NCBI RefSeq assembly: GCF_000214595.1
Contig: NZ_AFIG01000003.1
Location: forward strand, 496,001 to 560,000
Reading direction: 5' to 3'
Length of the DNA: 64,000 nucleotides
Origin: Methylophaga thalassica MP
GTDB taxonomy: Bacteria; Pseudomonadota; Gammaproteobacteria; Nitrosococcales; Methylophagaceae
The position numbers and the translations under genes were made by a program. Positions within the stretch are counted from its first letter, which is position 1. Every line of letters begins with the position of its first letter. The notes under the pieces were generated by a model. That model did not search any database, was not told the DNA's origin, and saw only the letters and a program-made list of their open reading frames with translations. Of this stretch, positions 46,384 through 64,000 are shown one piece after another.

Positions 46384-46923
46384 GATTGTCGTAAAAGCTC
46401 AAAAAAACGCGGCCAAAAGCCGCGTTTTTTTATGTCTGATTGAAAAGATTTTCAATCACTCAATATTCTGGATCTGCTCATTGAGTAGCGGCCTAGACTC
46501 TAACCAACTCAATAACTTACCGAGAATAAACCGTTCAAAAATGCCTGTTTGCCCACCAAACTGCCCACCACTTGTCTATGGCTTTTACGAAATCTTAGTG
46601 GTTAGCAATGGAAAAACAGTGCCGTTTTTATGCTGCTGTTAGGGTTTAAAAATAGCAGTTTTGAAAGGCTTTATCGAGTACGATTTCTGTCAATATAGCT
46701 TTGCCATTTTTTCACTGGTTCTACACAATAGTAATGAGTCAGCAGAAAGCTCACTTAGCCTGAAATGGACATTATGGTGTCCATTTTAATAGGAATAAGC
46801 TCAATATGGATACTATGGTATCCAAGAGAGATAAGACTGAGTGTCGAATGATAAGCATCAGGTCTACAAATTGTTATCCCTAAGGTAACTTTGTGTAGAC
46901 CTTCGGGGCTAGGCAACGCGCCT
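46384..46923. other. Non-coding region at probable island border with several dyads
   Basis: Besides the terminator it contains: GATTGAAAA GA TTTTCAATC (46438-46457); two related operator-like dyads with 7-base arms, ATGGACA...TGTCCAT (46765-46784) and TGGATAC...GTATCCA (46807-46824), 41 bases apart; and an imperfect palindrome of about 43 bases (46860-46902) bounded by AGGTCTACA and TGTAGACCT. No credible gene. The dyads suggest a lost or distant regulator, or recombination sites. Confidence 0.45.
46402..46430 (+). terminator. Strong Rho-independent terminator
   Basis: CGCGGC (46408-46413) pairs with GCCGCG (46419-46424); flanking A and T tracts lengthen the stem and provide the T-run. It ends the PEP-CTERM-type gene and can work in both directions. 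The left border of the genomic island probably lies not far beyond. Confidence 0.9.
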
Positions 46924-48290: not shown

Positions 48291-48347
48291 CACTTTTACG
48301 CGCAGAAAAGTGAGGAATTTTACATTTTTATGCGCATAAAAGTGTAA
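48291..48347. promoter_or_regulatory. Two related palindromes upstream of the ATPase gene
   Basis: CACTTTTACGCGCAGAAAAG plus TG (48291-48312) and a 28-base near-perfect palindrome (48320-48347; centre TTTTATGCGCATAAAA, ends TTACA/TGTAA) share the layout CACTTTTAxGCGCAxAAAAGTG. Both lie 48-104 bases before the ATPase start, suggesting paired binding of a repressor. Confidence 0.5.
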
Positions 48348-48412
48348 TCCGCAACCTTTGGCATTCAGGGATCCATTTCATCGCCTTGGCCAACGCGCAA
48401 GCTAAACCTAAA

Positions 48413-48540
48413 GGTGGGATATAAATCCAATTATATTGAGTAAAGTGGGAATATAGTCCTATATGTAAATTGTTGGAGTTGCTTGGGATTCAAAGTTGGA
48501 CTATATTCCCATTAAAGGTTAAATAGTGGGAATATAGTCC
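48413..48540. promoter_or_regulatory. Operator cluster of the first hipBA module
   Basis: GTGGGAATATAGTCC occurs at 48445-48459 and 48526-48540, its inverse GGACTATATTCCCA at 48498-48511, and a decayed copy GGTGGGATATAAATCC at 48413-48428. The last copy ends 14 bases before the ATG. The layout fits cooperative autorepression by the HipB-like protein encoded next. Confidence 0.65.
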
Positions 48541-48554
48541 CTTTGGTTGGTGAT

Positions 48555-48860
48555 ATGGCTAAGCGTGACTTACACAATGTACTGTTTCCAAAGCAGCGCA
48601 AAATCCTGACGCATTTTGGTGAAGACTTGCTGTTGGCGATGAAACGACGTGGTTTTACAAAAAAGCTACTGTGTGAACGTACTGGTTTTGATCATAAAAC
48701 CGTGAATAAAGTCTTCGCCGGTGATCCGGGCGTTGCCATAGGCACTTACTTAAAAGTGATGGCTGTTCTTGGCATGGAAAGCAACTTTGCAGAAATGGCC
48801 GCTCATGATGAAGTGGGTATCAAGCTGCAAAACATAAAATTGCTGGAAGGTTCAAAATGA
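48555..48860 (+). CDS. HipB-like antitoxin/regulator of module 1
   Basis: A 101-residue helix-turn-helix protein. The DNA-binding region is about 24-80 (GEDLLLAMKRRGFTKKLLCE then RTGFDHKTVNKVFAG). It overlaps hipA by four bases (ATGA). It should repress the module and neutralise the kinase. The ATG at 48555 is preferred to an upstream TTG, which lies too close to the last operator. Confidence 0.8.
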   Translation: MAKRDLHNVLFPKQRKILTHFGEDLLLAMKRRGFTKKLLCERTGFDHKTVNKVFAGDPGVAIGTYLKVMAVLGMESNFAEMAAHDEVGIKLQNIKLLEGSK

Positions 48861-50107
48861 GCCGTGAAATCGTCGAAGTCTATGCCGACTGGCAGCCAAT
48901 TGAAGCGCCTTTGCTAATTGGGCTGCTTGCTTACAGTGATTCAAGCCGAGGTGGCGTATTTAGTTTTGCCTACGATAAAGCATTTTTAACCTCAGCCTAT
49001 CGCTTGCAAATTGATCCCATCCTGTCGCTTCACTCCGGTGAACTCTATAACGATGAAGCCGATAAAAACTTTCGCGCATTTCTTGATTCATCGCCTGATA
49101 GATGGGGGCGTATTTTAATGCAGCGGCGTGCGGCGATTGAGGCGCGCAAAGGTATTCGAGCAACAAGTCGATTAAACGAATTGGATTACCTGCTGGGCGT
49201 ACATGACTCTTATCGGATGGGGGGGATTCGATTTAAGCGAGTAGGCTCGGATGCTTTTTTGGACGACAACTCTGAGTTTGCTGCGCCGCCAATGGCTTCT
49301 TTGCGAGAGCTAGAGCACGCAGCAATGCAGATTGAAAAAGACGATAATATCGACAGTGACGAGTATTACCGCTGGTTGAAAATGCTGATTTCTCCAGGCT
49401 CATCATTAGGTGGTGCAAGGCCCAAGGCTTGTGTCACAGATGAACAAGGCCACTTGTGGATTGCCAAGTTTCCCAATCTAAATGATACCCATGACGTGGG
49501 CGCATGGGAGATGGTCTGTTATGAATTGGCTCTTGCGGCAGGTGTTCACATGTTTCCAAGTGAGATCAAGCAATTTTCGTCACAGCACCATACCTTTTTA
49601 ACCAAACGGTTTGACCGCGACGGTGAAAAGCGGCTGCATTTTTCATCGGCCATGACACAGCTTCAATACTATGATGGTGAACAATCTCAAGGTGCTAGCT
49701 ACTTAGAGATTGCTGAATTTATTTCCAATTCTGGTGCACAAACCGCCGCCGATTTAGCTCAGTTATGGCGTCGAATCGTGTTTAATATTGCGGTGTCCAA
49801 CACGGATGATCACCTGCGTAACCATGGGTTTTTATTAACAAAGAATGGCTGGAAGTTATCACCTGCTTATGATTTAAACCCGATAGTGGGTAAGCATGGC
49901 CTGCATCTGAATATTACCGATGCAGACAACGCTTTAGACTACCAGCTAGCCTTTGATGTGAAAGACTTCTTCAGACTTTCGCAAACCCAAGCCACGCAAA
50001 TTTACGATGAAGTATTAATGGCGGTTAAGCAATGGCAAACCGTTGCTAAGCGGCTAGGGATCAGCCGAGCGGAGCAAGCCATGAAACAATCAGCGTTTAA
50101 CGTTTAA
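48857..50107 (+). CDS. HipA-family serine/threonine kinase of module 1
   Basis: A 416-residue protein: N-terminal HipA subdomain (1-100), then the kinase core. SSLGGARPKACV (about 172-183) is the phosphate-binding loop, LWIAKFP carries the lysine, NIAVSNTDDHLRNHG (about 311-325) is the catalytic loop with the aspartate, and LSPAYDLNP (about 332-340) is the metal-binding end. HipA kinases phosphorylate targets such as tRNA synthetases and slow growth. Confidence 0.88.
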   Translation: MSREIVEVYADWQPIEAPLLIGLLAYSDSSRGGVFSFAYDKAFLTSAYRLQIDPILSLHSGELYNDEADKNFRAFLDSSPDRWGRILMQRRAAIEARKGIRATSRLNELDYLLGVHDSYRMGGIRFKRVGSDAFLDDNSEFAAPPMASLRELEHAAMQIEKDDNIDSDEYYRWLKMLISPGSSLGGARPKACVTDEQGHLWIAKFPNLNDTHDVGAWEMVCYELALAAGVHMFPSEIKQFSSQHHTFLTKRFDRDGEKRLHFSSAMTQLQYYDGEQSQGASYLEIAEFISNSGAQTAADLAQLWRRIVFNIAVSNTDDHLRNHGFLLTKNGWKLSPAYDLNPIVGKHGLHLNITDADNALDYQLAFDVKDFFRLSQTQATQIYDEVLMAVKQWQTVAKRLGISRAEQAMKQSAFNV

Positions 50108-50437: not shown

Positions 50438-50680
50438 ATGAACCCAACTACACAATCATCCACCACATCAACACACCCAGCGCGTCAGCAGCGGATTTTG
50501 CGCTTGCCCGAGGTAAAGGCCAAAACAGGCTTTGGCCGCAGCACCATTTATGCCTTGATGGCCAACGGTGAATTTCCCCGTTCCATTCGTATTGGTGCGC
50601 GTGCCGTGGGCTGGTTAGAAAGCGATATCGACCAGTGGATTGAAACCCGCCGTATCGGTGCTGCTTATGGCCGTGGATAA
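50438..50680 (+). CDS. AlpA-family helix-turn-helix regulator
   Basis: An 80-residue excisionase-type DNA-binding protein: RILRLPEVKAKTGFGRSTIY (19-38) and FPRSIRIGARAVGWLESDID (about 46-65) are the winged-helix signature of AlpA proteins in P4-like islands, which activate the integrase. The ATG at 50438 follows GAGGA by eight bases; a GTG five codons earlier overlaps it. Confidence 0.85.
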   Translation: MNPTTQSSTTSTHPARQQRILRLPEVKAKTGFGRSTIYALMANGEFPRSIRIGARAVGWLESDIDQWIETRRIGAAYGRG

Positions 50681-50726
50681 ACCATCAGCATCAACCCCGT
50701 TACCTGCCAATGAGGTGAATAACAAC

Positions 50727-52409
50727 ATGCCAACATTACCGGCTGGTTTTGCCTATAACTCGCAAAACTGGCTGGTGATGCAACTGGCTGGGCAAGATAG
50801 CCCTGTTAAAATCTGCTCTTGGCTGCAAGTAGCGGCACGCACCCGCGATCCGCAAGGAGACAACTACGGCTATTTATTGCACTGGTTAGACGATGACAAT
50901 CGCCATCGCTATTGGGCCATGCCCGCAGAACTCTTAGCCGGAGACGGCAGCGAGTACCGCCGAATTCTACTTAGCCGAGGCATGCGGCTAAGTAACAGTG
51001 TCAAAGCGCGGCAGTTGCTCTCGCTGTTTATTCAACAAATGGGCGAACTGGCCACGCAAAAGGCCATCAGCGTGAACTGCATTGGCTGGCATCATCACGC
51101 TTATGTGCATCCGCGCCTCACCTTTTACCCAAGCGAACACAGCAATAACCCGCGCATGGTGCTGCAAACTATGCACCCGATAGAAGGCTTTATTCAACAA
51201 GGCAGTAGCGACAGTTGGCGGCAGCACGTTGGCTGTTATTGTCTGGATAACCCGCTATTAATTGTTGGCGTTTGTGCTGCACTGGCTGCACCTTTGTTGC
51301 ACTTGTGTGGGGTGGATGGTTTTGGTTTACACCTCTATGGTGCCAGCAGTACTGGTAAAACTGCGGCGCTGTATCCGGCATTATCGGTGTGGGGCGAGCC
51401 TAATCAACTGCGCCACAGTTGGCGTGCCACGGCCAACGGTTTAGAAGGCACAGCATTAGCGCATAACGATGCCTTGCTGGCGCTCGATGAAATGGGCGAA
51501 GTTGATCCAAAAGAGGCGGGAGATGTCGCTTATATGCTTGCCAATGGCCAAGGTAAAACCCGTGCAGGCAAATACGGTGAAATGCGCTTACCCGCCCGTT
51601 GGCGTTTAGTGTTTTTATCTACTGGTGAAGTGACGCTCGAAAGCCATCTTGCCAGTATCGGCAAGCGCGTGAAAGCGGGGCAGCAAGTGCGCGTGATTGA
51701 TCTCAGTGCCGATGCCGGAGCGCAAATGGGCGTGTTTAACCATTGCCATGACATGAATGCCGCCGATTTAGCCGATCACCTAAAACAGCAAAGTCGCCAA
51801 CACTACGGCTGCTTGGCCTTGGACTGGTTACGTTATTTAACGCAGCACAGCGCGCAGGTGCGACCCGTTTTCCAAAACGTACGCCAACGCTTTTTAGCCA
51901 GTTTACCACCCGAGGCTGACGGCCAAGTGCGCCGAGTTGCCGAAAAATTTGCCTTACTGGCCAGCGCAGGCCTGTTAGCCATTCAAGCCGAAGTACTTGA
52001 TTGGCCAGCTCAAAGTGTCGAAGCTGCCTGTTTAAGCCAGCTTAACCAATGGATACTTGCCCGCGGTGGTGTGGCCGCCAATGAAGACCAACAAGCCATT
52101 CGCCAAGTGCGTAGCTTTATTGAGCAGCATGGCGAAAGCCGCTTTACGCCTAAACAAACCGGTTACAGCAGCCAAGTACGCCAGCGCGCGGGTTGGCTTG
52201 ATACTTCTGGCCCACAAACCCTCTACCTGTTTTACCCAACTGGCTGGCGTGAAGCCACCGAAGGCCTAAGCCCAGATCGCGCCGCCAAAGCACTGATGGC
52301 CGCAGGCTACCTAGTCCCCGATGGTAATCGGCCACAGCGCAAAGTCAGCCTCCCCGATAACACCCGCCCACGAATGTACTGCGTGAAAGGCAGCATCTTG
52401 GATGACTAA
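50727..52409 (+). CDS. DUF927-domain ATPase of a mobile element
   Basis: A 560-residue protein with the DUF927 superfamily core found in replication modules of P4-like elements. Walker A-like GLHLYGASSTGKTAALYPAL (about 195-215), LLALDEMGEVDPKEAG (Walker B, about 250) and RLVFLSTGEVTLESHL (sensor 1) are visible. It may act as a primase-associated helicase. The ATG at 50727 has GAGGTG upstream; ATG at 50667 without a site is an alternative and would overlap alpA. Confidence 0.78.
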   Translation: MPTLPAGFAYNSQNWLVMQLAGQDSPVKICSWLQVAARTRDPQGDNYGYLLHWLDDDNRHRYWAMPAELLAGDGSEYRRILLSRGMRLSNSVKARQLLSLFIQQMGELATQKAISVNCIGWHHHAYVHPRLTFYPSEHSNNPRMVLQTMHPIEGFIQQGSSDSWRQHVGCYCLDNPLLIVGVCAALAAPLLHLCGVDGFGLHLYGASSTGKTAALYPALSVWGEPNQLRHSWRATANGLEGTALAHNDALLALDEMGEVDPKEAGDVAYMLANGQGKTRAGKYGEMRLPARWRLVFLSTGEVTLESHLASIGKRVKAGQQVRVIDLSADAGAQMGVFNHCHDMNAADLADHLKQQSRQHYGCLALDWLRYLTQHSAQVRPVFQNVRQRFLASLPPEADGQVRRVAEKFALLASAGLLAIQAEVLDWPAQSVEAACLSQLNQWILARGGVAANEDQQAIRQVRSFIEQHGESRFTPKQTGYSSQVRQRAGWLDTSGPQTLYLFYPTGWREATEGLSPDRAAKALMAAGYLVPDGNRPQRKVSLPDNTRPRMYCVKGSILDD

Positions 52410-52973: not shown

Positions 52974-53306
52974 ATGAAAAACCTCAAACAATCGCGCTGC
53001 GTGATTGGCATTAAAGGGCAAACGCCCGACCCCGATTTCCCCGTTGATATCTGGTTCGATTCGCTGAAATCGGTGGCCAATGTGCTGTCGAAAGAAAATC
53101 AGCAGTTGTTAAAAGTAATCGCCGAACAACAGCCACAATCGGTCACTGAGCTGGCCATGCTAACAGGCCGAGCGGTCAGTAATGTGTCGAGAACACTGAA
53201 AACATTGGGCAAGTACAACTTGGTTGAAATGCAAAGTACAAAAAACATGCTTCGCCCTACCGTCACCCATCAAGAATTTTTAGTAGTAGTCAATAATGAA
53301 CAATAA
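52974..53306 (+). CDS. MarR/ArsR-like winged-helix regulator
   Basis: A 110-residue protein. Residues 40-95 form a winged helix: LLKVIAEQQPQSVTELAMLT then GRAVSNVSRTLKTL. Its stop overlaps the methyltransferase start by 11 bases, so it very probably controls the methyltransferase-McrB-McrC genes, as controller proteins do in many restriction systems. Confidence 0.75.
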   Translation: MKNLKQSRCVIGIKGQTPDPDFPVDIWFDSLKSVANVLSKENQQLLKVIAEQQPQSVTELAMLTGRAVSNVSRTLKTLGKYNLVEMQSTKNMLRPTVTHQEFLVVVNNEQ

Positions 53307-54558
53307 AATCAACGTCCTTCTACAAGCAGAAGAAATTATTAAACCCTTAGCACTTGAGCATGTGCCACAAGACAGTGTCGTTGAAGCGGTAATTGACCAA
53401 TGGTTACACGCCATTGCGACTGATAGCCAGTTTTACTGCAAGCCAGATATCAGCAAGCCAGAACAGCTCAAAGAGCGTGTAATCAGCCTGCTACAGCAAA
53501 ATGGTTTATACACAACAAGAGACGCGTTCTTTAATGAGGTATTTGGTGCTTTAAAGCTAAAGCCTGATTTTGACGCTAAGTTTCGTTTTATCGACTTATT
53601 TGCAGGGATCGGTGGAGTTCGACTCGGTTTTCAACAAAACGGCGGCGTTTGTGTTTTTTCTTCCGAATTTGATAAGCATGCTCAGCAAACCTACAAAAAT
53701 AATCATGGCGAGATTCCATTTGGCGATATTACAAAGATCCCTGCGAATGAAATCCCTGATCATGACGTTCTTTTGGCTGGCTTCCCATGCCAGCCATTTT
53801 CGCATGCAGGCCTTAAACTAGGGATTGAAGATACCCGAGGTACTCTATTTCATGACATAGCCAATATTCTAGAAACGAAAAAGCCTAAGTTTGCGTTACT
53901 TGAAAATGTGAAAGGTTTAATTAGCCATGATAAAGGCTATACGCTCAAGGTTATTTTAAAAACGCTAACCAAAATGGGATATAGCTGCAATATTCCTAAA
54001 AGTGTTATTGAGCATGGTTCTACAAAGGAAATTCAAGCCTTAGCCAAAGAAATGGTTCTGAAGTCAGTGGACTTTGGAATACCGCAGAATAGACAGCGCA
54101 TATACATCGTTTTATGGCGTGATGGCGAAGTTAAAAGTTTTGAGTACCCAAAACCACTAGGTATTGAAGTTAAAGTTGGTGATATGCTTGAGGAAAACCC
54201 AGATCCTAAATTAACTATTTCTGATAGATTATGGGAAGGCCATCAACGTAGAAAAATTGAAAATAAAAAAAATGGCAAAGGCTTTGGTTTTGGCTTGGTT
54301 ACGAAAGCATCCCCCTACACCAATACTATCTCGGCACGATATTACAAAGACGGTAGCGAAGTACTGATTGAACAGGTTGGAAAAAATCCTCGGAAGATTA
54401 GCCCAAGAGAGGCTGCACGATTACAAGGGTTCCCTGATGAATTTGAACCAAGCGCTTCAAAAGTGCAAGCGTATAAACAATTTGGTAATAGCGTTACTGT
54501 TAATGTAATTGATGGATTAGCTAAAAAAATTAGGAATATATTAGATGGCATTAATTGA
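53296..54558 (+). CDS. DNA (cytosine-5) methyltransferase
   Basis: A 420-residue modification enzyme. After an N-terminal extension of about 95 residues come motif I FIDLFAGIGGVRLGF, motif IV GFPCQPFSHAG with the catalytic cysteine, motif VI ENVKGL, motif VIII QNRQRIYIV, motif IX PREAARLQGFPDEF and motif X QFGNSVTVNV. All key blocks are present, so it should be active. It overlaps the mcrB-like gene by 14 bases. Confidence 0.93.
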   Translation: MNNKINVLLQAEEIIKPLALEHVPQDSVVEAVIDQWLHAIATDSQFYCKPDISKPEQLKERVISLLQQNGLYTTRDAFFNEVFGALKLKPDFDAKFRFIDLFAGIGGVRLGFQQNGGVCVFSSEFDKHAQQTYKNNHGEIPFGDITKIPANEIPDHDVLLAGFPCQPFSHAGLKLGIEDTRGTLFHDIANILETKKPKFALLENVKGLISHDKGYTLKVILKTLTKMGYSCNIPKSVIEHGSTKEIQALAKEMVLKSVDFGIPQNRQRIYIVLWRDGEVKSFEYPKPLGIEVKVGDMLEENPDPKLTISDRLWEGHQRRKIENKKNGKGFGFGLVTKASPYTNTISARYYKDGSEVLIEQVGKNPRKISPREAARLQGFPDEFEPSASKVQAYKQFGNSVTVNVIDGLAKKIRNILDGIN

Positions 54559-56881
54559 TTTAAGTGAGAAATTCAGAGAAATCAGAAGCTCAGTTGATGG
54601 GGTCAACTTTACTGATGTTAAGCTAACAGAAGAGTTCAAAAAAGAATATGAGCTTTATCTTAGTGAGAATAGGGCAAATGGTTACTCTAAAGTAGAGTTT
54701 GCTGATTTTTCTACTAAAATCACCACATCAACAGGTAAAGCCATTTTTATAACTAACTTTTGGTTCTATATTGCTGCAGAGCTTTCTAATTACTTAGATG
54801 GTCTATCACAACAAAAAAATATTTTTAAAGATATATATAAGGATACAGATCTTCAACAAGCTGCCGTCGCTCTAAGAGATGGAGTTTCCGAACAAGAAAA
54901 AAGCAAGATTGAAAATTATTTCAGTTCAAAGGGTTATACAAATGATGATCTTGAGTGCTTTTTATCATTCGTATCGGATTACAAAAGTTGGGGAGGAGGT
55001 AAAACAATAGATCGTAATGATTACTACGTATCCCCATTATTACAGGCTGGAAATTTGTTGGCAGAAACTCAAAGTGCAGTAGCCGAAATAGCAAAGCAAA
55101 TGTCTGAATATCCAGCTTTGAAAGATTCATTTACACCCATATTTGTGAATAAGCCAAGATCATTACATATTGATACGCATGGAAAAGAGATTTTAAAATC
55201 AGAAACAATAAGATCTTTTGTAAAAGAAGTTTTTCAATACTTATATCGTGAGAATCTTAGCGATCCTTTGTCCTCTTGTTTGGTGGAAGTTGAAACCGAT
55301 TTAGGTAAGAAGTATCTAGAGCTTGTCAGAGGAGATCAAAAAATATACAGATTATTTTTGGTTTCTGATACCCGCTTGGAAGATTCTGAACTGACATCAG
55401 GTAGCAATATTCGATACTTCAATGAACCATTTAATAATGGTAGTCAGTTGTTGTATCTAACGAATCAGTGGGCTGATAATAACGGAGATTCAAAAAATAG
55501 TCGTGACTTGGGGGCTTTTTCATCGATATTCAACGCTATTTATCAAGACTTGAAGATAGTTAAAAAAGATGGGTTTTATGTTCTTACTAGCACAACAAAT
55601 AACGTTGGACAGGGAGAATATTTATCCAAACCCTTCCTCCTTCTCGCAGGCATCTCAGGCACAGGTAAAACCCGTTTTGTGCGTGAGCAGGCTAAAACCT
55701 CGGGGCAGTTTGCTGAAACCTATTGTTTAACTTCGGTGCGCCCTGACTGGCATGAGCCGAGTGATTTGCTTGGCTATATTTCTCGTCTTGCAAAAGACGG
55801 AAAAGCCGAATACATCACTACCGATGTATTGCAGTTTATAGCTAAAGCATGGCGTGCGATTGCTGATAACGGCTTAAACATTAAGCCTGAAGAGAACGAA
55901 GACCAAGGCAAGCGTTTAGTTGTGGCCGGTGAACGCGATGAGCTAGATAAGGTGCTGCCTTACTGGCTGTGCTTAGATGAAATGAACCTTGCCCCTGTTG
56001 AGCAGTATTTTGCTGATTATTTGTCGGTACTGGAAACCCGCGAATGGAGTTGGACAGATGATAGCTTTACCTACAGCTGCGATGCGCTATTGAAACCCGC
56101 CACCATTAAAGAAGTCGCGGATAAAGAAAAGCTGCGTGAAGCGCTAGGCTTTGAGGGTTCGCAATACGATGAGCTGTGGGCTGACATTTGCCAATATGGT
56201 TTAAGTATTCCGTTTAACCTGCTGGTCGCAGGCACGGTGAATATGGATGAAACCACTCACGGCTTTTCACGCAAAGTGATTGACCGAGCGCTGAGCTTTG
56301 ATTTTGGTGCGTTTTTCCCGAACGACTATCACGACTTTTTCACCCCAACCAGTTGCAATAAACGCCTTAGCTATCCTATTTGGTCAAACGCCAGCAAAGC
56401 AGACTTAGACAATACCTTTGATGCGGATGGCACAAAAACCGTTGCGTTTTTATCGGCCGTTAATGCGGTGCTAAAAAATACACCGCTTGAATTGGCATTT
56501 CGTGCGCTCAATGAACTTCTTCTCGCGGTTGCCAGCAGCCAACCACAAGATGACCTGACTCTAAAAGCTGTATGGGACGACTTTATGATGTGTAAGGTTC
56601 TGCCGCGTATCGAAGGCGATACCGACAAACTGACTACATCTGATGGTAAGGCTTTGTTGGTTGAACTTAATACTGTGTTGGCAGACCAGTTTGCCCCTAT
56701 TTGGTTAGCGTCTGACGCAGACGAAGCCAATCAACGCCCTGACTTGTATCGCGAGAAAATCGTGGCCGATGGTGCTACTGAAGAGGAAAAAGTACTGCGT
56801 ATACCTTGCCGTTCAAAAGCGAAGTTGCAGTGGATGAGCGAGCGATTAGCCAGTGCGACCTTTACCAGTTTCTGGCCTTAA
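54545..56881 (+). CDS. McrB-like AAA+ restriction NTPase
   Basis: A 778-residue protein. The first 360 residues are not recognised and probably recognise DNA. The AAA+ domain begins with LLLAGISGTGKTRFVREQA (about 359-377); LCLDEMNLAPVEQYFADYL is Walker B and LLVAGTVNMDETTHGFSRKV is the sensor/signature (NxD) region typical of McrB. It should power DNA translocation with the McrC-like nuclease encoded next. Confidence 0.87.
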   Translation: MALIDLSEKFREIRSSVDGVNFTDVKLTEEFKKEYELYLSENRANGYSKVEFADFSTKITTSTGKAIFITNFWFYIAAELSNYLDGLSQQKNIFKDIYKDTDLQQAAVALRDGVSEQEKSKIENYFSSKGYTNDDLECFLSFVSDYKSWGGGKTIDRNDYYVSPLLQAGNLLAETQSAVAEIAKQMSEYPALKDSFTPIFVNKPRSLHIDTHGKEILKSETIRSFVKEVFQYLYRENLSDPLSSCLVEVETDLGKKYLELVRGDQKIYRLFLVSDTRLEDSELTSGSNIRYFNEPFNNGSQLLYLTNQWADNNGDSKNSRDLGAFSSIFNAIYQDLKIVKKDGFYVLTSTTNNVGQGEYLSKPFLLLAGISGTGKTRFVREQAKTSGQFAETYCLTSVRPDWHEPSDLLGYISRLAKDGKAEYITTDVLQFIAKAWRAIADNGLNIKPEENEDQGKRLVVAGERDELDKVLPYWLCLDEMNLAPVEQYFADYLSVLETREWSWTDDSFTYSCDALLKPATIKEVADKEKLREALGFEGSQYDELWADICQYGLSIPFNLLVAGTVNMDETTHGFSRKVIDRALSFDFGAFFPNDYHDFFTPTSCNKRLSYPIWSNASKADLDNTFDADGTKTVAFLSAVNAVLKNTPLELAFRALNELLLAVASSQPQDDLTLKAVWDDFMMCKVLPRIEGDTDKLTTSDGKALLVELNTVLADQFAPIWLASDADEANQRPDLYREKIVADGATEEEKVLRIPCRSKAKLQWMSERLASATFTSFWP

Positions 56882-56966
56882 TGAGTCGGTGCTGTTTGAT
56901 GCCTTCTGCAATGAATGAAACCTATAAGCAGAACCCGTACAGTGATGGTGTAAGGAGTGGTAGGGA

Positions 56967-59573
56967 ATGCCGGAGTTAATACGATTACAAACCCCTGACT
57001 TTGAGTTTTCGGTCTGGGCGAATGATATTAGCCAGCGGTTGCGCGTGTACCAGAATACAATGGCGCACAGGGCGAGCGCTAATGATGTACAACCTAGCTA
57101 CGAATTGCGCTTTGCGCCTGCGGCGCAGCTGAGCAATGCGATTGAACCGCAAGGGCTAGTTGCAGATGGCTTAGTACAAAGTGGGTTAGATGAAAGTGAC
57201 TTAGCCGAAAATGAACTTGTTGCCAATGGCTTAGCGAAACACGCTGAGCTTACATTAAATTCCCCGCTGTTTTTTGAGAATACTCAGTACCAGTTTGAGT
57301 GGGTATTTTTTAGTGAAGTCACTCATGCGCGGCTAACTCACCGAAGCCAAAACGTGAATGAGGCGTTTCGTTTTGCTCCCGAAGTAAAAACCGCAAGGGG
57401 CGTAGTGCCCGCACGTTTAACCGGCACCATTAATACTGGCAATGATGTGGGCTGGTTACGCTTGCCACTTACCTTTGAGCACAATGGCAAAACACAGACT
57501 CAGCACATAGCCTTTGAAGTGCTGCCAACCAAAATGGCACTTCACCAAGACTTACCCGCCATGTACCAAGCCATAGACAAAGTTTACCCTCTTTGGCGCT
57601 TTAGTTTGGTCGAAAAAACCGAACAAGACGCTGCGACTAGCCAGCAACGCGGGCATTTTCCACTTATGTGGTTAGCTAATTTTGCCGCGTTACGGGAGCG
57701 TTTTGAGCAAGGCTTAAAAGTGATTTGTGCAGCCCCTCATAGCCGTTTGCAACCGACGGTAGCCAATATTAAAGCGGCTAAATTAAAAGGCCGCCTGCCA
57801 CATAAGTTAGCCGAGAAAGTTAAGCAAGACTTTGCCAATGGCCAGTACGATAAGCGCTATGCAGTCGAAAAAAAGCAACTGAGTGTCGATACCCCAGAAA
57901 ACCGTTTTATCAAAATGGCGGTGAGTAAAAGTAAGCGGCAATTAGCGGAGTTTGAACAAAAGCTTAGGCAGAGTAACCAAGCACCAGAACGGCAACGGTT
58001 GTCTGATTCATTTTTAAATGAGCTGCATAGTTGGCAGCAGCCGCTACAAAAAGTGTTAGGTCAGAGTTTTTTAAAAGAGGTGGGTGCATACACAGGGTTA
58101 AGCCGTGAGTCGTTAGTGCTACAGCAAAAAACAGGTTACAGCGCGGTCTATCGCATTTGGCAGGAGCTGAAATTTTATTTAGATGTGTTTGGCAATCAGT
58201 CGAGCATTTCAATGAAATCAGTGGCCGAGATTTACGAAGTGTGGTGTTTTTTGTGTTTGAAACAGATTTTAGAGCAGGATCTCGGCTTTGAATTGGTCGA
58301 AAACGGGGCGACTAAGCTCGCCCAGAATAACTTTTTTGAGTACCAACTAAAAGATGGTTTTGCTGGAGCCTTTCGTTTTAAACGCAGCGATGGTGTGACC
58401 GCTCGGCTGGCACACGAGCCGAAATTTACCAAAAAGGGCCAATCAATCCGCTCGTACTTGGTTAACCAAGAGCCAGATATTGTGTTGGAAGTGACACTGC
58501 CTAAAAGCGCTGGTTCAACGAAAGCAGACTCATTAGAAGAAAAGCAGTTTATTTGGTTGTTTGATGCCAAGTACCGTATTAAAACTGAGAAAAACCGCTT
58601 TGATGACAGCAATGAAGATATCGAAAGTAAGGATTACGTACCAGACGATGCCATTAACCAAATGCATCGTTATCGGGATGCCTTGATTCGGCTATCAGAG
58701 CCCCGTTTTTCAGAGCCGCGCGATTCTAAATCACCATCAAGTGGAAACGCTGGCCAATCTCCTAAGAAAAGCCGCCCTGTTTTTGGTGCGTTTGCTTTAT
58801 ACCCAGGCTTTTTTGATCAAGCTACAACCCCCAACCCCTACGCAGCCGCGATAGAAGAAGTGGGTATTGGTGCGTTTGCCCTCTTACCCAGCCAAAACGA
58901 ACTTAGTCAAACTGAATCAACCCAGACTAAGAGCTGTTATTCTGGTCACCAGTGGTTGCTAGAGTTCTTGCAAGCGCAAATTGGCACAGCGCCGAATGTA
59001 CAAACAGGGCAAGGCAATGAGGCCATGTATCCTGTGGCTGGCATGGCGGAAAGGCTCTACGTACAAGAAGCAGCACGCATACCTTATTACGGCATGCGCC
59101 AAGTGCTGTATCCTGATTTGACGATGACCGTGGCATTGGGTGGGCAACGTGGCCGTGATAATGGCTACTTTGAACAATTTGAGCAAGGCACAGCGCTGTG
59201 GTATCACCTGCCGCAAAGCACGTTTTTGCAGAAATTTAAGCAGCATATTGCCGAGGAAATTCGCTATTTAGCATTGGCATCTACCTCAGACACTCAAAGT
59301 TCAACCAAGCAAATTGACAAGCTCTGGCCAGTTAAACGAGTCACAGTGTTACCACGTTACGCCATTACCGAAGATCAAGCAGGTAAGAAGTCAGGTTCTG
59401 CTGATTTGTATTATTTATTTGAGTTAGGCAAACCACTGTCACTGCAAACGCCAGTGACCAATGTGCCGCATCGTCCAATGAAAAACTCGATGAAACTCAC
59501 AACCTTAACGCGCCTAGAGAGCGTCACTAAGTTTACCGAGGTTGAAAAAGTGTACGAAGCGGCAATGGTGTGA
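56967..59573 (+). CDS. McrC-like nuclease with DUF2357 domain
   Basis: An 868-residue protein. DUF2357 occupies about 150-480 (TPENRFIKMAVSKSKRQL near 310). A PD-(D/E)XK-like core follows: EPDIVLEVTLP (about 510) and FIWLFDAKYRI (about 530). DUF2357 proteins partner with McrB-type NTPases. The ATG has a GGAG site and lies 85 bases after mcrB. Confidence 0.83.
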   Translation: MPELIRLQTPDFEFSVWANDISQRLRVYQNTMAHRASANDVQPSYELRFAPAAQLSNAIEPQGLVADGLVQSGLDESDLAENELVANGLAKHAELTLNSPLFFENTQYQFEWVFFSEVTHARLTHRSQNVNEAFRFAPEVKTARGVVPARLTGTINTGNDVGWLRLPLTFEHNGKTQTQHIAFEVLPTKMALHQDLPAMYQAIDKVYPLWRFSLVEKTEQDAATSQQRGHFPLMWLANFAALRERFEQGLKVICAAPHSRLQPTVANIKAAKLKGRLPHKLAEKVKQDFANGQYDKRYAVEKKQLSVDTPENRFIKMAVSKSKRQLAEFEQKLRQSNQAPERQRLSDSFLNELHSWQQPLQKVLGQSFLKEVGAYTGLSRESLVLQQKTGYSAVYRIWQELKFYLDVFGNQSSISMKSVAEIYEVWCFLCLKQILEQDLGFELVENGATKLAQNNFFEYQLKDGFAGAFRFKRSDGVTARLAHEPKFTKKGQSIRSYLVNQEPDIVLEVTLPKSAGSTKADSLEEKQFIWLFDAKYRIKTEKNRFDDSNEDIESKDYVPDDAINQMHRYRDALIRLSEPRFSEPRDSKSPSSGNAGQSPKKSRPVFGAFALYPGFFDQATTPNPYAAAIEEVGIGAFALLPSQNELSQTESTQTKSCYSGHQWLLEFLQAQIGTAPNVQTGQGNEAMYPVAGMAERLYVQEAARIPYYGMRQVLYPDLTMTVALGGQRGRDNGYFEQFEQGTALWYHLPQSTFLQKFKQHIAEEIRYLALASTSDTQSSTKQIDKLWPVKRVTVLPRYAITEDQAGKKSGSADLYYLFELGKPLSLQTPVTNVPHRPMKNSMKLTTLTRLESVTKFTEVEKVYEAAMV

Positions 59574-59644: not shown

Positions 59645-59712
59645 TAAGTAAAATCGACATCAAAAAATATCGAGCTATTTGGCGCTTTTGATATTAAAAT
59701 CGCATCAACAAC

Positions 59713-59764
59713 ACCCCTCCCGCTACCCGTTAGATCAGCGCCCCGCGAGGGGTTACTCGTTTTT
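59713..59764 (+). terminator. Possible terminator of the restriction operon
   Basis: ACCCCTC (59713-59719) can pair with GAGGGGT (59747-59753), and a smaller CGAG/CTCG hairpin (59746-59759) ends in TTTTT. Alternative pairing makes it uncertain. The convergent gene ends just to the right. Confidence 0.4.
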
Positions 59765-59771
59765 AAGGCTT

Positions 59772-60470
59772 CTAATTTTTGCTACCGTAATCAGTTACGG
59801 CACCAAAATTAGCTTCCAACCACACATCATTCTCCGGCCCACAAATGTGGTGCAGCAGCGCTAGGTTGATTTGGTGGCTGATCACGTTGCCGTTTCGTTT
59901 TTGGCTTTCTTTTTTCAAACCTCTCAGTAATAACCCTGTGCATGATTTTCCTATTTGCTCCGGCGAACTGGGCAGGCAAAAGCCGCGGTTTTGCTGTTTG
60001 GGGTGCAAGGTAGCGCGCTTTCCTGTTTTAGACAAAGGCGTGATGCACCAAAAGATACAGGCGTTGGCCGGTGTGTTTGCTTGCAATGTTCTGGTTTGTA
60101 TTGTGCCGTTCATATATACCGGTAAAAAATGTGCTGGTAACAAAACCAACCCGCCTTGCGCGTGGCCATCAACCTCAGGTAAAGGTAGCCAATACAGGTT
60201 TGGCCATTGCTCGGGGCTTTGCCATTTTTCTACGATCTCTTGTGCGCCAATGCTATTTAGCCATTGGTGAATCGGGCAGCCTGGGTGTGCTTGTTTAACG
60301 CGTGGTAACTGAAAGGTCAGCCAGCGGGTTAAGCGTTCAGCGGCATTATCGCACTGGCTTAATGCTGGGTAGAGGGTAAACGCGCCATGCCCAACCAGTA
60401 AAGTGACCACCTGCTGTATCCATTCTCTATCCCAATCGTTAGCACTTGCCCATAACACGTCACTTATCAC
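59772..60470 (-). CDS. Hypothetical protein
   Basis: A 232-residue soluble protein of no recognised family. Tryptophan and histidine rich, with PEVDGHAQGGLVLLPAHFLP in the middle and a basic C-terminal third. The GTG start is uncertain; a GTG four codons later has AAGGTG at a suitable distance. Convergent with the McrC-like gene. Confidence 0.5.
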   Translation of the reverse strand: MISDVLWASANDWDREWIQQVVTLLVGHGAFTLYPALSQCDNAAERLTRWLTFQLPRVKQAHPGCPIHQWLNSIGAQEIVEKWQSPEQWPNLYWLPLPEVDGHAQGGLVLLPAHFLPVYMNGTIQTRTLQANTPANACIFWCITPLSKTGKRATLHPKQQNRGFCLPSSPEQIGKSCTGLLLRGLKKESQKRNGNVISHQINLALLHHICGPENDVWLEANFGAVTDYGSKN

Positions 60471-61220
60471 CTTGTTGGTTCGTCATGCCGTCTATTTTCA
60501 GTCGTCGAGTGCAGACGCGGTGGTGAATTAGATGAAAGAAATGGCCATCAAACTCACCAGTCAAATCGGTTTTTTATGATGACCTGTGCGCGGCTAACTA
60601 TTTGATATACATAGTCCAATACGGCTCTGTTTGGCGGCATTTGGCTAGTGAAAAAAATCGAGACGCCAAACGATCGTTTGCATTCTGGGTTTAAAAAATC
60701 AAACGGTTTGTACTTTGGATTCGAGGTTGGTTTAGGGTGAAAAAAGTGCCAAACCTTGCTTTGAGCCTGTACTGGCAAGGCCTACCAGCGTTGGATTTCA
60801 ATCGAGAAGCCAAACAGTAAATGGGCTAGTTTCCCTGTTTGGCGTTTCGATCCAAAAGCCAAACGGATAGTGGTTTTGGCGTATGGGGGTAAAGGCATGG
60901 GGAAGTGTGTGGCGGCTGTTGAAACTCATGGATTAGCAAATGAGGCATATAGGGGGATTGCATCAGCTGATCAAAGTAAGTAGTTGGGTTGGTTGATTCA
61001 GCTTAAATCTGGATGTGGTATTTTGTAAGCAAGCTATTCAAATTACAGCCCATTGTCCCAACTGCCCACGGTAAGTGAGCGCGCGTTACAAGTTATCTAT
61101 AATTGCATATTAGAAAGTGCTTTTTGATACATAATAGCTAATCATTCTTGTGTTTGCGGGATTGCGGTGATATGTTTTTGTATATAATTATTCTTAATTG
61201 ATGCATCAAGGCGTATCGAA
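60471..61220. other. Non-coding region with iteron-like repeats
   Basis: Related 18-base units occur at 60657-60674 (ATCGAGACGCCAAACGAT), 60801-60818 (ATCGAGAAGCCAAACAGT), 60835-60851 (inverted) and 60850-60867. Further GCCAAAC cores lie at about 60629 (inverted) and 60749. The perfect palindrome CAAACGATCGTTTG lies at 60667-60680. The layout resembles iterons at a replication origin or a multi-copy operator. Beyond it lies a 32-base direct repeat (61049-61080). Confidence 0.5.
61049..61080 (+). repeat. 32-bp direct repeat, left copy
   Basis: Starts CCCATTGTCCCAACTGCCCA and ends ACGGTAAGTGAGC's last bases GTGAGC. An identical copy lies at 62939-62970. The pair encloses the second hipBA module, which suggests that the module was inserted, duplicated or excised through this sequence. 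Confidence 0.9.
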
Positions 61221-61541
61221 ATGAGTTATGTAACAGAGCAGATACTAGAAAGTCTTCGAGAAGCTCGGGTACGCAAGGGGTTTAGCCAAAGAGAGTTAAG
61301 CGCACGGTCGGGTGTACCGCAAAGCCATATTTCGAAAATCGAGTCTGGCGGTGTTGATTTAAGAATATCCAGTTTAATTGCACTTGCCCGTGTACTCGAC
61401 CTAGAGCTATTGGTTGCGCCTAAAAAGTCCATTCCTGCCATCAAGTCAATCATTCGAAGTGGCCAAGGTATTAACGGCATCAGCGACGAGGGTGAGCCAA
61501 TGTCGCCCGCATATCAGTTAGAGGAAGACGACAATGACTAA
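61221..61541 (+). CDS. hipB: HipB antitoxin of module 2
   Basis: A 106-residue XRE-family protein: helix-turn-helix at about 11-65 (FSQRELSARSGVPQSHISKI), then a tail (SPAYQLEEDDND) that would contact HipA. Overlaps hipA by eight bases. Classic HipB size and position. Confidence 0.87.
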   Translation: MSYVTEQILESLREARVRKGFSQRELSARSGVPQSHISKIESGGVDLRISSLIALARVLDLELLVAPKKSIPAIKSIIRSGQGINGISDEGEPMSPAYQLEEDDND

Positions 61542-62763
61542 CCATGTCTCTACGCTCAACGTGTTGCTCTACGGGGAACCTATCGCAACGATCACTAACG
61601 TGGGCAATGACAGAACGCTTTTTGCCTTTATGGATTCGTACATTAATGACGAATCGCGGCCCGTGTTAGGGCTGGGTTTTAAAGATGCACTGGGTGGCTT
61701 ACTGACTAATTTTAAACCGACCCAAACCAAGTTAACTCCGTTTTTCTCTAACCTTTTGCCAGAAGAAACCATGCGTCATTACCTGGCTGAGCGTGCCGGA
61801 GTGAATCCAGCACGGGAGTTTTTTCTATTGTGGGTGTTAGGACAAGATTTAGCAGGTGCGATCACGGTTGAACCTGCTGATGGCGAAGCGCTGCCGCCTA
61901 ATGTGCATCAAGACATTGACGAAGAAACGAAAATTGAAGCGCCGATGCGCTTCTCATTGGCGGGTGTGCAGTTGAAGTTTTCAGCTGTACAACAGGCAAA
62001 CGGTGGTTTGACTATTCCAGTAACCGGTCAAGGTGGCTCTTGGATTGTGAAATTGCCATCGTCTCGCTTTGACGCTGTGCCAGAAAATGAATATTCGATG
62101 ATGGAATTGGCTCGCATGTTGGGGATGGATGTGCCAGAAACGCAGCTACTCCCGATTAACCAGATTGCTAATATCCCAGATGGTATTGGTAAATTTGGCG
62201 ATGCTTTTAAAAATGCTCAGGCGTTTGTGATCAAGCGCTTTGATCGTGCAGGTGATCAAGCCATACATATTGAAGATTTTGCGCAAGTGTTTGGCGTCTA
62301 TCCTCAAGATAAATACAAAAAAGCCAGTATGCGCAATATTGCTCAGGTTATCGGCATCGAAGGTCAAGACGAAGACATTGCAGAATTTACGCGTCGATTG
62401 GTGTTCAATACCCTAATTGGCAATGCGGATATGCATCTGAAGAATTGGTCTGTGATTTACAAAGACAAGCGCGCAGCATCGATTGCGCCTGCCTATGACT
62501 TTGTCTCGACCATTCCTTATATCCCCGATGATAGTGCATCGCTGAAGGTGAGTCGTAGCAAGAAATTCAGTGATTTCACGCTGGATGAGCTGTCACACTT
62601 GGCGGCTAAAGCCATGCTGCCAGAAAAATTGGTGTTAGATACTGCCAAGCAAACCGTGGCAGGCTTTCATGAAATCTGGGCGAAAGAAAAAGCGCATTTA
62701 CCGCTCACGAAGTCGATGATTGAAGCAATTGAAACACATTTGCGAAGCATACCGCTACGCTAA
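61534..62763 (+). CDS. hipA: HipA serine/threonine kinase of module 2
   Basis: A 409-residue HipA. The N-terminal domain has LTPFFSNLLPEETMRHYLAE; the kinase core follows with MRFSLAGVQLKFSA (about 146-159; phosphate-binding loop), WIVKLPSSRF (lysine), NTLIGNADMHLKNWS (about 291-305; catalytic loop) and APAYDFVST (about 318; metal binding). Complete and probably active. Sequence differs strongly from module 1, so they were acquired separately. Confidence 0.92.
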   Translation: MTNHVSTLNVLLYGEPIATITNVGNDRTLFAFMDSYINDESRPVLGLGFKDALGGLLTNFKPTQTKLTPFFSNLLPEETMRHYLAERAGVNPAREFFLLWVLGQDLAGAITVEPADGEALPPNVHQDIDEETKIEAPMRFSLAGVQLKFSAVQQANGGLTIPVTGQGGSWIVKLPSSRFDAVPENEYSMMELARMLGMDVPETQLLPINQIANIPDGIGKFGDAFKNAQAFVIKRFDRAGDQAIHIEDFAQVFGVYPQDKYKKASMRNIAQVIGIEGQDEDIAEFTRRLVFNTLIGNADMHLKNWSVIYKDKRAASIAPAYDFVSTIPYIPDDSASLKVSRSKKFSDFTLDELSHLAAKAMLPEKLVLDTAKQTVAGFHEIWAKEKAHLPLTKSMIEAIETHLRSIPLR

Positions 62764-62938
62764 AATGAGAACCGACGCGTACAGAAATGCAGAGGCGCCG
62801 GTCATAGTGGTTTGAAAGCTGTGTTTGAAAGGTATGTTTGGTGACTTGTGTTGTCAATCAAAGCCCCGATTGCCCCACTCCTTGGGGCGGTTCAAATCCC
62901 TCTTATTCACCTTCTATAGCTTGTATATCAAGTGTTGC

Positions 62939-62970
62939 CCCATTGTCCCAACTGCCCACGGTAAGTGAGC
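62939..62970 (+). repeat. 32-bp direct repeat, right copy
   Basis: Identical to 61049-61080. It lies 176 bases after the hipA stop. It is not followed by similar sequence on either side, so identity is confined to this segment. Confidence 0.9.
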
Positions 62971-62984
62971 AAATGGGTGGTTTG

Positions 62985-63323
62985 TTAGTTTCGCCTGATG
63001 GGCCTTTTCGGCATGCGGCTGCGTTTGCCATCGAAAAAGGCTAATACTCTGAACCAATAGAGTGATTCTTCATAACCCAAGCTGTACGTTGGGCGTGCAG
63101 GCGGGATAAGCCCCAGTTTGCGTCCTAGGCTGACAATCACGTAGAACGTGAGTTTTAGCGCCAGCCAAGGGGCGAGTACCACCAATGTCGACAGGCAATA
63201 CCGAGTAAGTGCGTAGCCTATACCATGAGGTTGATCGAGTAAGGCAATGCCAATACACCAACCAAGGCATGCCAGCATGGCTATTGGAAAGGTAATGGGG
63301 GCGAGTCGCATCATCAGTTGCAT
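62985..63323 (-). CDS. Hypothetical membrane protein downstream of the integrase
   Basis: A 112-residue protein with two or three membrane helices (about 8-28 and 45-70) and a basic tail (FFDGKRSRMPKRPIRRN). The ATG at 63323 has a strong GGAGGG ribosome site lying inside the integrase gene end, so it is coupled to it. Unrecognised. Confidence 0.65.
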   Translation of the reverse strand: MQLMMRLAPITFPIAMLACLGWCIGIALLDQPHGIGYALTRYCLSTLVVLAPWLALKLTFYVIVSLGRKLGLIPPARPTYSLGYEESLYWFRVLAFFDGKRSRMPKRPIRRN

Positions 63324-63324
63324 G

Positions 63325-64000
63325 TTAACGCCCTCCTGTGTTGTGCTGTGAAGTGTGCTCAAAGTTCACCAGCGGTTCAACCACATCAGCCACGGTTTGA
63401 TGGGCAATACGGCGCTCTTCAAAGTAATCGTGTCGGTCGTAGATGCCCTCAACGCCTTTTAGCTTATGGTTAAGACAGCGTTCGGCCACGTTGCCTGCGA
63501 TACCCAAAGAGGCGGCAAGGCTGCGAAAGGTGCGGCGCAAATCGTGTACGGTGAAGTGTTCAAGTTTGCCCATTTTATTGGGTGGCTGTTTTTTGCGACC
63601 CGGTTCTCGACCAAAGAGTTTAGAAATGGCTCGGTTCAGCGTATCTGGCCCCATATGGGGACGATGGCTTGCTCGTCTGGCCGGGAAAACATAAGGCGAG
63701 CCACAAGCGCGGATTTGCAGCTCGTTAAACCAAGCAATGGCTTGGCGCGGTAAGGGGATGCTGATTGGCACGCCGGTTTTGCTGCGTTCTTTGGGTAGAT
63801 CCCACACGCCCGTGGTTAAATCCATTTCACGCCACATGGCTTCGCACAGTTCGCTTTTGCGCACGCCCAACACCAAAAACAGGCAGCAAGCGAGGTAGTT
63901 ATCGCGACCAAAGCTATTGATATGGGTATGAAACACGCTAAAGGCGTAGTGAATTTCCTCTTTGCTGAGCATCCTGTCTTTACTGGACTCCACGCCACCG
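63325..64000 (-). CDS. Tyrosine recombinase/integrase, 5' end outside the window
   Basis: The catalytic domain of a phage-type integrase; at least 225 residues are visible and the frame continues off the right edge. Active-site blocks: LGVRKSELCEAMW (first arginine), HDLRRTFRSLA (H-x-x-R), CLNHKLKGVEGIYDRHDYFEE (histidine and nucleophile tyrosine, in two overlapping halves). It resembles P4-type integrases of genomic islands, consistent with AlpA and DUF927 genes in the same island. Confidence 0.88.
   Translation of the reverse strand, partial: GGVESSKDRMLSKEEIHYAFSVFHTHINSFGRDNYLACCLFLVLGVRKSELCEAMWREMDLTTGVWDLPKERSKTGVPISIPLPRQAIAWFNELQIRACGSPYVFPARRASHRPHMGPDTLNRAISKLFGREPGRKKQPPNKMGKLEHFTVHDLRRTFRSLAASLGIAGNVAERCLNHKLKGVEGIYDRHDYFEERRIAHQTVADVVEPLVNFEHTSQHNTGGR

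Follow-up and report, generated by a model that had tools for sequence, protein, structure and literature searches.

Two identical short repeats around a single toxin-antitoxin operon raise the question of whether the operon is a cassette that moves or is lost by means of its repeats, or whether the repeats serve something larger. In the window (the whole stretch of 64 kb of DNA analysed here), two 32-base copies that are 100% identical and on the same strand lie at 61049-61080 and 62939-62970, 1890 bp apart from start to start. The first-pass annotation had described them as identical copies 1.9 kb apart, enclosing only hipB and hipA and with no other similarity nearby, and had proposed that hipBA moves as a unit or is lost through the repeats. 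The spacing was borne out, with exact coordinates and strand confirmed, and so was the content, as the number of other credible genes between the copies is zero. The statement about nearby similarity needs one correction: the right copy ends a conserved element of about 107 bp (62864-62970), the arm of which is missing beside the left copy here. A third copy was found neither in the 64-kb window at up to 3 mismatches (0 expected, from 100 shuffles) nor, at the same threshold, anywhere else in the 3.26-Mb genome; the genome has these two copies only.

The enclosed genes are readily identified. The HTH antitoxin gene hipB (61221-61541, plus strand, 106 aa; Pfam HTH_3, 1.8e-14) stands directly upstream of the HipA kinase toxin gene hipA (61534-62763, plus strand, 409 aa; Pfam HipA_C, 2.2e-50, and Couple_hipA, 3.4e-18), with an overlap of 8 bp. 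The catalytic motifs of HipA, GNADMHLKN and PAYD, are kept and align with GNEDMHLKN and PAYD of HipT(Lp) in the PDB matches to HipT and HipA. Judged by gene order and domains, the pair is a genuine HipBA type II toxin-antitoxin operon, in which HipA would be toxic and would stabilise the island. The chromosomal hipBA of E. coli K-12 has the same hipB-hipA order with overlap, an HTH antitoxin and the HipA kinase fold; sequence similarity to it is moderate (PDB HipA, E about 1e-14), and the pair described here differs in lying on a mobile island. A composite transposon or MITE-like unit was considered and rejected: around hipBA we found no transposase ORF and no bounding pair of inverted repeats; it ends in direct repeats instead, copies of a backbone element.

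Sequence comparison shows that the hipBA module is part of an integrative island of 18.5 kb, inserted in the yicC 3' end; gene content and relatives make Methylophaga the probable host genus. The left end, attL (ATATTCTGGATCTGCTCA, 46463-46480), and the right end, attR (ATATTTTGGATCTGCTCA, in the yicC 3' end at window-equivalent 64940-64957, just beyond the window), match at 17 of 18 positions; the integrase gene adjoins the att site in the yicC 3' end, and the 18-bp core is duplicated at the other end. In two genomes of the same genus (G1049 and G1050) the site is uninterrupted, and the island is absent from both, because the same upstream gene and terminator run directly into the yicC 3' end. 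No tRNA or tmRNA was found in the window as an att target, and Rfam gave no match in 60400-64000 even at E values as high as 1. The tyrosine integrase (minus strand; Pfam Phage_integrase, 3.1e-13) occupies 63325-64000 in the window, and its full gene of 418 aa extends over window-equivalent 63325-64581. A small backbone ORF (62985-63362, minus strand, 125 aa), which has no Pfam match and is 84-98% identical in relatives, overlaps the integrase end; its C-terminus shows a faint likeness, far below the cut-off, to EexR/EexS entry exclusion (NF041429). Two direct repeats of TGCCCACCA lie by attL (46550-46570, plus strand), where they would function as arm-type sites of the integrase, and five more copies stand next to attR (window-equivalent 64620-64814). 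A 66-kb stretch has 9 copies of TGCYCACCA on this strand; 7 of them lie at the two island ends, and the motif is probably an arm site of the integrase.

The remainder of the island is cargo and putative mobility functions. Near attL lies a second, different HTH and HipA-family pair (48555-50107, plus strand; weak NF007297 and PDC-M03A matches), a toxin-antitoxin-type cargo of the left end. It is followed by an AlpA-like HTH gene, an excisionase candidate, and a DUF927-type helicase gene (50438-52409, plus strand; from ORFs and NCBIfam), and the annotation of the E. coli yicC island (L028) has such a pair of HTH and DUF927 genes as well. The best NCBIfam match of the DUF927-type gene, below cut-off, is the cassette replicative helicase Cch1 of SCCmec, and the island may replicate after excision. 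A type II cytosine methyltransferase and a two-gene McrBC-like restriction pair (53296-59573, plus strand; PADLOC MTase_II, PDC-M26A/B) form variable defence cargo. The 5.1 kb that lead up to the att site are 98.3% identical between the window and P. lipolytica (L019), and we therefore conclude that there has been recent transfer between distant genera.

The two copies of the 32-mer turned out to have different attachments. When 84,980 species genomes were scanned for exact matches, 21 loci came up in many gammaproteobacterial genera, and a copy on the integrase side is present in each of them (with one mismatch in L012). This copy is preceded by a conserved arm of about 75 bp starting CCCC(A/G)ATTGCCCCATTCCTTGGGGC, which in the window reads CCCCGATTGCCCCACTCCTTGGGGC...GTTGC (62864-62938, plus strand), and in more than 20 genomes the island has the arm and 32-mer beside this same pair of small ORF and integrase gene. 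Because the integrase-side copy and its arm recur in every locus, the right-hand copy (62939-62970, plus strand), which contains the inverted repeat TGCCCAC-N5-GTGAGCA, is island backbone. Among loci that were retrieved by other means than the 32-mer (relatives by way of the small backbone ORF, those of E. coli and Acinetobacter with longer DNA queries), its conservation reaches 96.5%, whereas each flank stands at 88%; the arm and 32-mer together keep about 90% from genus to genus. Overall the island is rare: in an even sample of 369 Gammaproteobacteria, the arm and 32-mer occurred in its own genome only. No sign of a phage origin was seen, because the exact 32-mer has 0 matches among IMG/VR viral contigs and hipBA was found in no phage records.

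The left copy (61049-61080, plus strand) is the 5' end of the hipBA unit and is followed by hipB in L019, L008, L068, L012 and L020. It is exact in L019, has one mismatch in L008 and L068, is degenerate in L016/L029, carries the full arm in two relatives (L012 and L020) and is collapsed in L066; in L004 it is absent, through a deletion that joins 59914 to 61093. In L031, hipBA and its left copy are sited elsewhere, after a DUF4143-type gene of another island remnant, and no copy stands on the right. Judged by this distribution, the hipB-side 32-mer is part of the hipBA unit and stays with it at another site too. Because other lineages (L016, L020) have a diverged left copy, the pair of repeats is not simply a recent duplication. 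We also observed that at the left island end a DUF4143-type gene is followed either by hipBA (L031) or by the different HTH-HipA pair (window 48345-50107), and there is possibly a second toxin-antitoxin slot near attL.

What lies between the conserved parts varies as a whole. A left border block (59660-60908), which includes an ORF without Pfam match (59772-60470, minus strand) and ends ...AAAGGCATGGGGAAGTGT, is 87-95% identical in most related islands, and different cargoes begin at its end; just before the slot, at 60650-60875 of the window, there are several degenerate AAGCCAAACGG-like motifs, both direct and inverted. The slot extends from this block, which ends near 60908, to the arm, which starts at 62864 and forms a sharp right border, with HigBA, PIN, Abi_2, hipBA and RhuM cargoes all meeting the arm at its CCCC; a site-specific event could also have produced this sharp border. 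The AATGAGAACCGACGCG... segment (62764-62809, plus strand) is another right-hand junction that recurs, following hipA or Abi_2 and also present where the slot is module-free. A hairpin in 62764-62815 was no stronger than in shuffles, and was dropped as a recombination or terminator structure. The cargo is HigBA with a TOTE primase-helicase in L005, L009, L010, L015, L018, L022, L064, L070, L028 and L026/L027 (loci cut inside the cargo being assigned by HigBA or border sequence), an HTH-ImmA/IrrE gene with a putative PIN-like gene, read as PIN from its sequence, in L006, L007, L013, L014 and L024, and HTH-ImmA/IrrE with Abi_2 in L021 and L023. The same HTH-ImmA/IrrE gene is followed by the PIN-like gene in L006 and by Abi_2 in L021, as if the toxin alone had been exchanged and the regulator kept in common. 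Two-module stacks, with hipBA nearest the integrase, occur in L012 and L066 (HigBA and hipBA) and in L020 (a putative RhuM-like module and hipBA), and the slot is module-free in L011/L074, L017 and L069. The first-pass annotation had proposed to look in other genomes for one repeat alone, either beside different cargo or with the module missing; both forms were found. Within the window's own species, another genome (G1066) has HigBA-type cargo in the slot and an integrase side that is 96% identical. The island or slot end is also seen in E. coli E14 (L028, in yicC) and on Acinetobacter plasmids (L026/L027), with HigBA and TOTE primase, and on an A. baumannii plasmid tet(39) lies near the HigBA-form slot end. 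The slot is carried by many marine and a few gut bacteria, with different toxin-antitoxin or phage-defence genes.

If hipBA were a cassette bounded by the two 32-bp repeats and moved or lost by recombination between them, each deletion should leave a scar in which a non-arm flank, one 32-mer and the integrase side are joined. The perfect direct repeats around hipBA alone are in favour of such a cassette, 32 bp is sufficient homology for RecA recombination, and the arm-32-mer-hipB arrangement of L012 indicates that the 32-mer was once a joint. Against it, the 21 distinct exact 32-mer contexts obtained from the 84,980 species genomes comprise 19 arm/integrase, one non-arm/hipB and one arm/hipB, and the predicted scar is found in 0 of 21. 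Three module-free slots (L017, L074 and L069) have their junctions elsewhere, at positions 61037 and 62763, and have in common a filler of about 36 bp. Because of the missing scar and the position of these junctions, the module was not lost through the repeats in any case seen. Moreover, hipBA in L031 has the left copy only, and the left copy has diverged in L016 and L020. We thus consider the deletable cassette unlikely. The proposal that hipBA moves as a unit or is lost via the repeats stands in part: hipBA is an exchangeable module, as other cargo at a single repeat (such as HigBA in G1066) indicates, but a unit bounded by the two repeats is not supported, the right copy being present with or without hipBA and L031 lacking it, nor is loss by recombination between them, of which no scar was seen.

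The stacks suggest another possibility, in which the 107-bp arm and 32-mer would be a recombination site at the 3' side of each toxin-antitoxin cassette, worked by the adjoining integrase, so that modules would be inserted beside int and stack in the manner of an integron. In L012 and L020 each stacked module does end in arm and 32-mer, the border is sharp and common to the cargoes, the 32-mer is more conserved than its flanks, and its TGCCCAC-N5-GTGAGCA resembles the TGCYCAC motif of the island ends. However, the attC consensus GTTRRRY/RYYYAAC is absent from 62764-62975, arm alleles are common to several cargo types and differ within one type, no circular cassettes were seen, arrays hold at most two modules (most islands have a single one, and the stack of L066 is degraded), and hipBA of L031 has no arm and 32-mer at its 3' end. 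We therefore hold this integron-like arrangement to be very unlikely, and give still less credence to its more specific form, in which the yicC-island integrase would use the 107-bp element, with its inverted TGCCCAC-N5-GTGAGCA core, to collect and stack toxin-antitoxin modules as a simple capture system without attC. It is just as improbable as the integron-like arrangement that the arm and 32-mer are a defunct att end left by an older element, in which TTGCCCCA/TGCCCAC would be decayed arm sites of the integrase, and that the variety of cargo comes from old nested insertions and deletions. The TTGCCCCA-like motifs repeated in the arm, the TGCYCACCA at the true ends and the composite islands built by accretion that are documented in the yicC-island family (PMC8978831) agree with such a relic, but the slot has neither an att core pair nor a second integrase, and conservation of about 90% across genera suggests more than a relic.

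The repeats are best read as a point of cargo exchange and not as the termini of a cassette that moves or deletes itself. Cargo has been reassorted between islands, and its type appears to have little linkage with the integrase-block tree: on that poorly resolved tree (1 of 24 inner branches starred) it changes 14 times, compared with a mean of 15.3 in shuffles, 68 of 300 of which gave 14 or fewer (L067 and L072, duplicate records of L008, and L073, of L017, were left out of the counts). Because the tree is weak, the shuffle test shows lack of linkage, not the number of events, and the tree was rejected as a history of the islands, its resolution being too poor. We infer that the exchange occurs by homologous recombination, and regard as probable a model in which related islands present in one cell trade cargo by way of short conserved blocks; hipBA would be one of the alternative modules and would help to retain the island. 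Islands of the yicC-integrating family would carry interchangeable toxin-antitoxin or abortive-infection modules in a slot at the integrase end, and two of them in one cell could recombine through the left block, the arm, the 32-mer and the integrase block, with modules swapped or stacked as a result. The 32-mer, which stands at the joint of the stacked modules in L012 and L020, would then be the homology that lets hipBA join behind another module, and hipBA would probably serve as an addiction module that keeps the cell from losing the island.

In Shewanella, experiments showed that a HipAB pair on a yicC-type island is a functional toxin-antitoxin pair that stabilises its composite island (PMC8978831), and by this parallel with a different, reversed pair, hipBA probably has a stabilising role here. 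The islands GI21 of Shewanella putrefaciens CN-32, GISpuPO1, GISspANA3 and GIPspSM9913 share with the present island the yicC target, a tyrosine integrase, an AlpA-type protein (Xis in GI21), restriction cargo and HipA/HipB near an island end (PMC8978831). In GI21, however, hipA-hipB are reversed and lie beside the end opposite int, whereas here hipB-hipA stand beside int in the exchange slot and AlpA is at the island end away from them; a repeated 32-mer is not described in the parts of that paper that were consulted (PMC8978831). SXT-mobilizable islands (MGIVflInd1) and SGI1-like yicC elements have the same target, the yicC 3' end (PMC8409611), but the backbone here, with AlpA and DUF927, is different.

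The hotspots of P2 and P4 are dedicated positions for defence cargo in mobile elements, and are comparable with the slot. E. coli defence islands likewise have conserved flanks and many alternative small defence or toxin-antitoxin modules swapped between related elements (PMC10121019); compared with both, the slot described here lies in yicC islands, mostly from marine gammaproteobacteria, and its modules are mostly of toxin-antitoxin type. The principle that defence and toxin-antitoxin modules occupy dedicated positions of mobile elements is already known (PMC10121019), and in the open-licence literature we found no description of this slot. Its significance is that of one slot with base-exact borders where islands of a single kind exchange entire toxin-antitoxin and abortive-infection modules, in many genera and also in E. 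coli and on Acinetobacter plasmids. Further modules can be found by reading between the left block and the arm and 32-mer, and the swapping of addiction and defence modules by mobile islands becomes testable in harmless marine strains.
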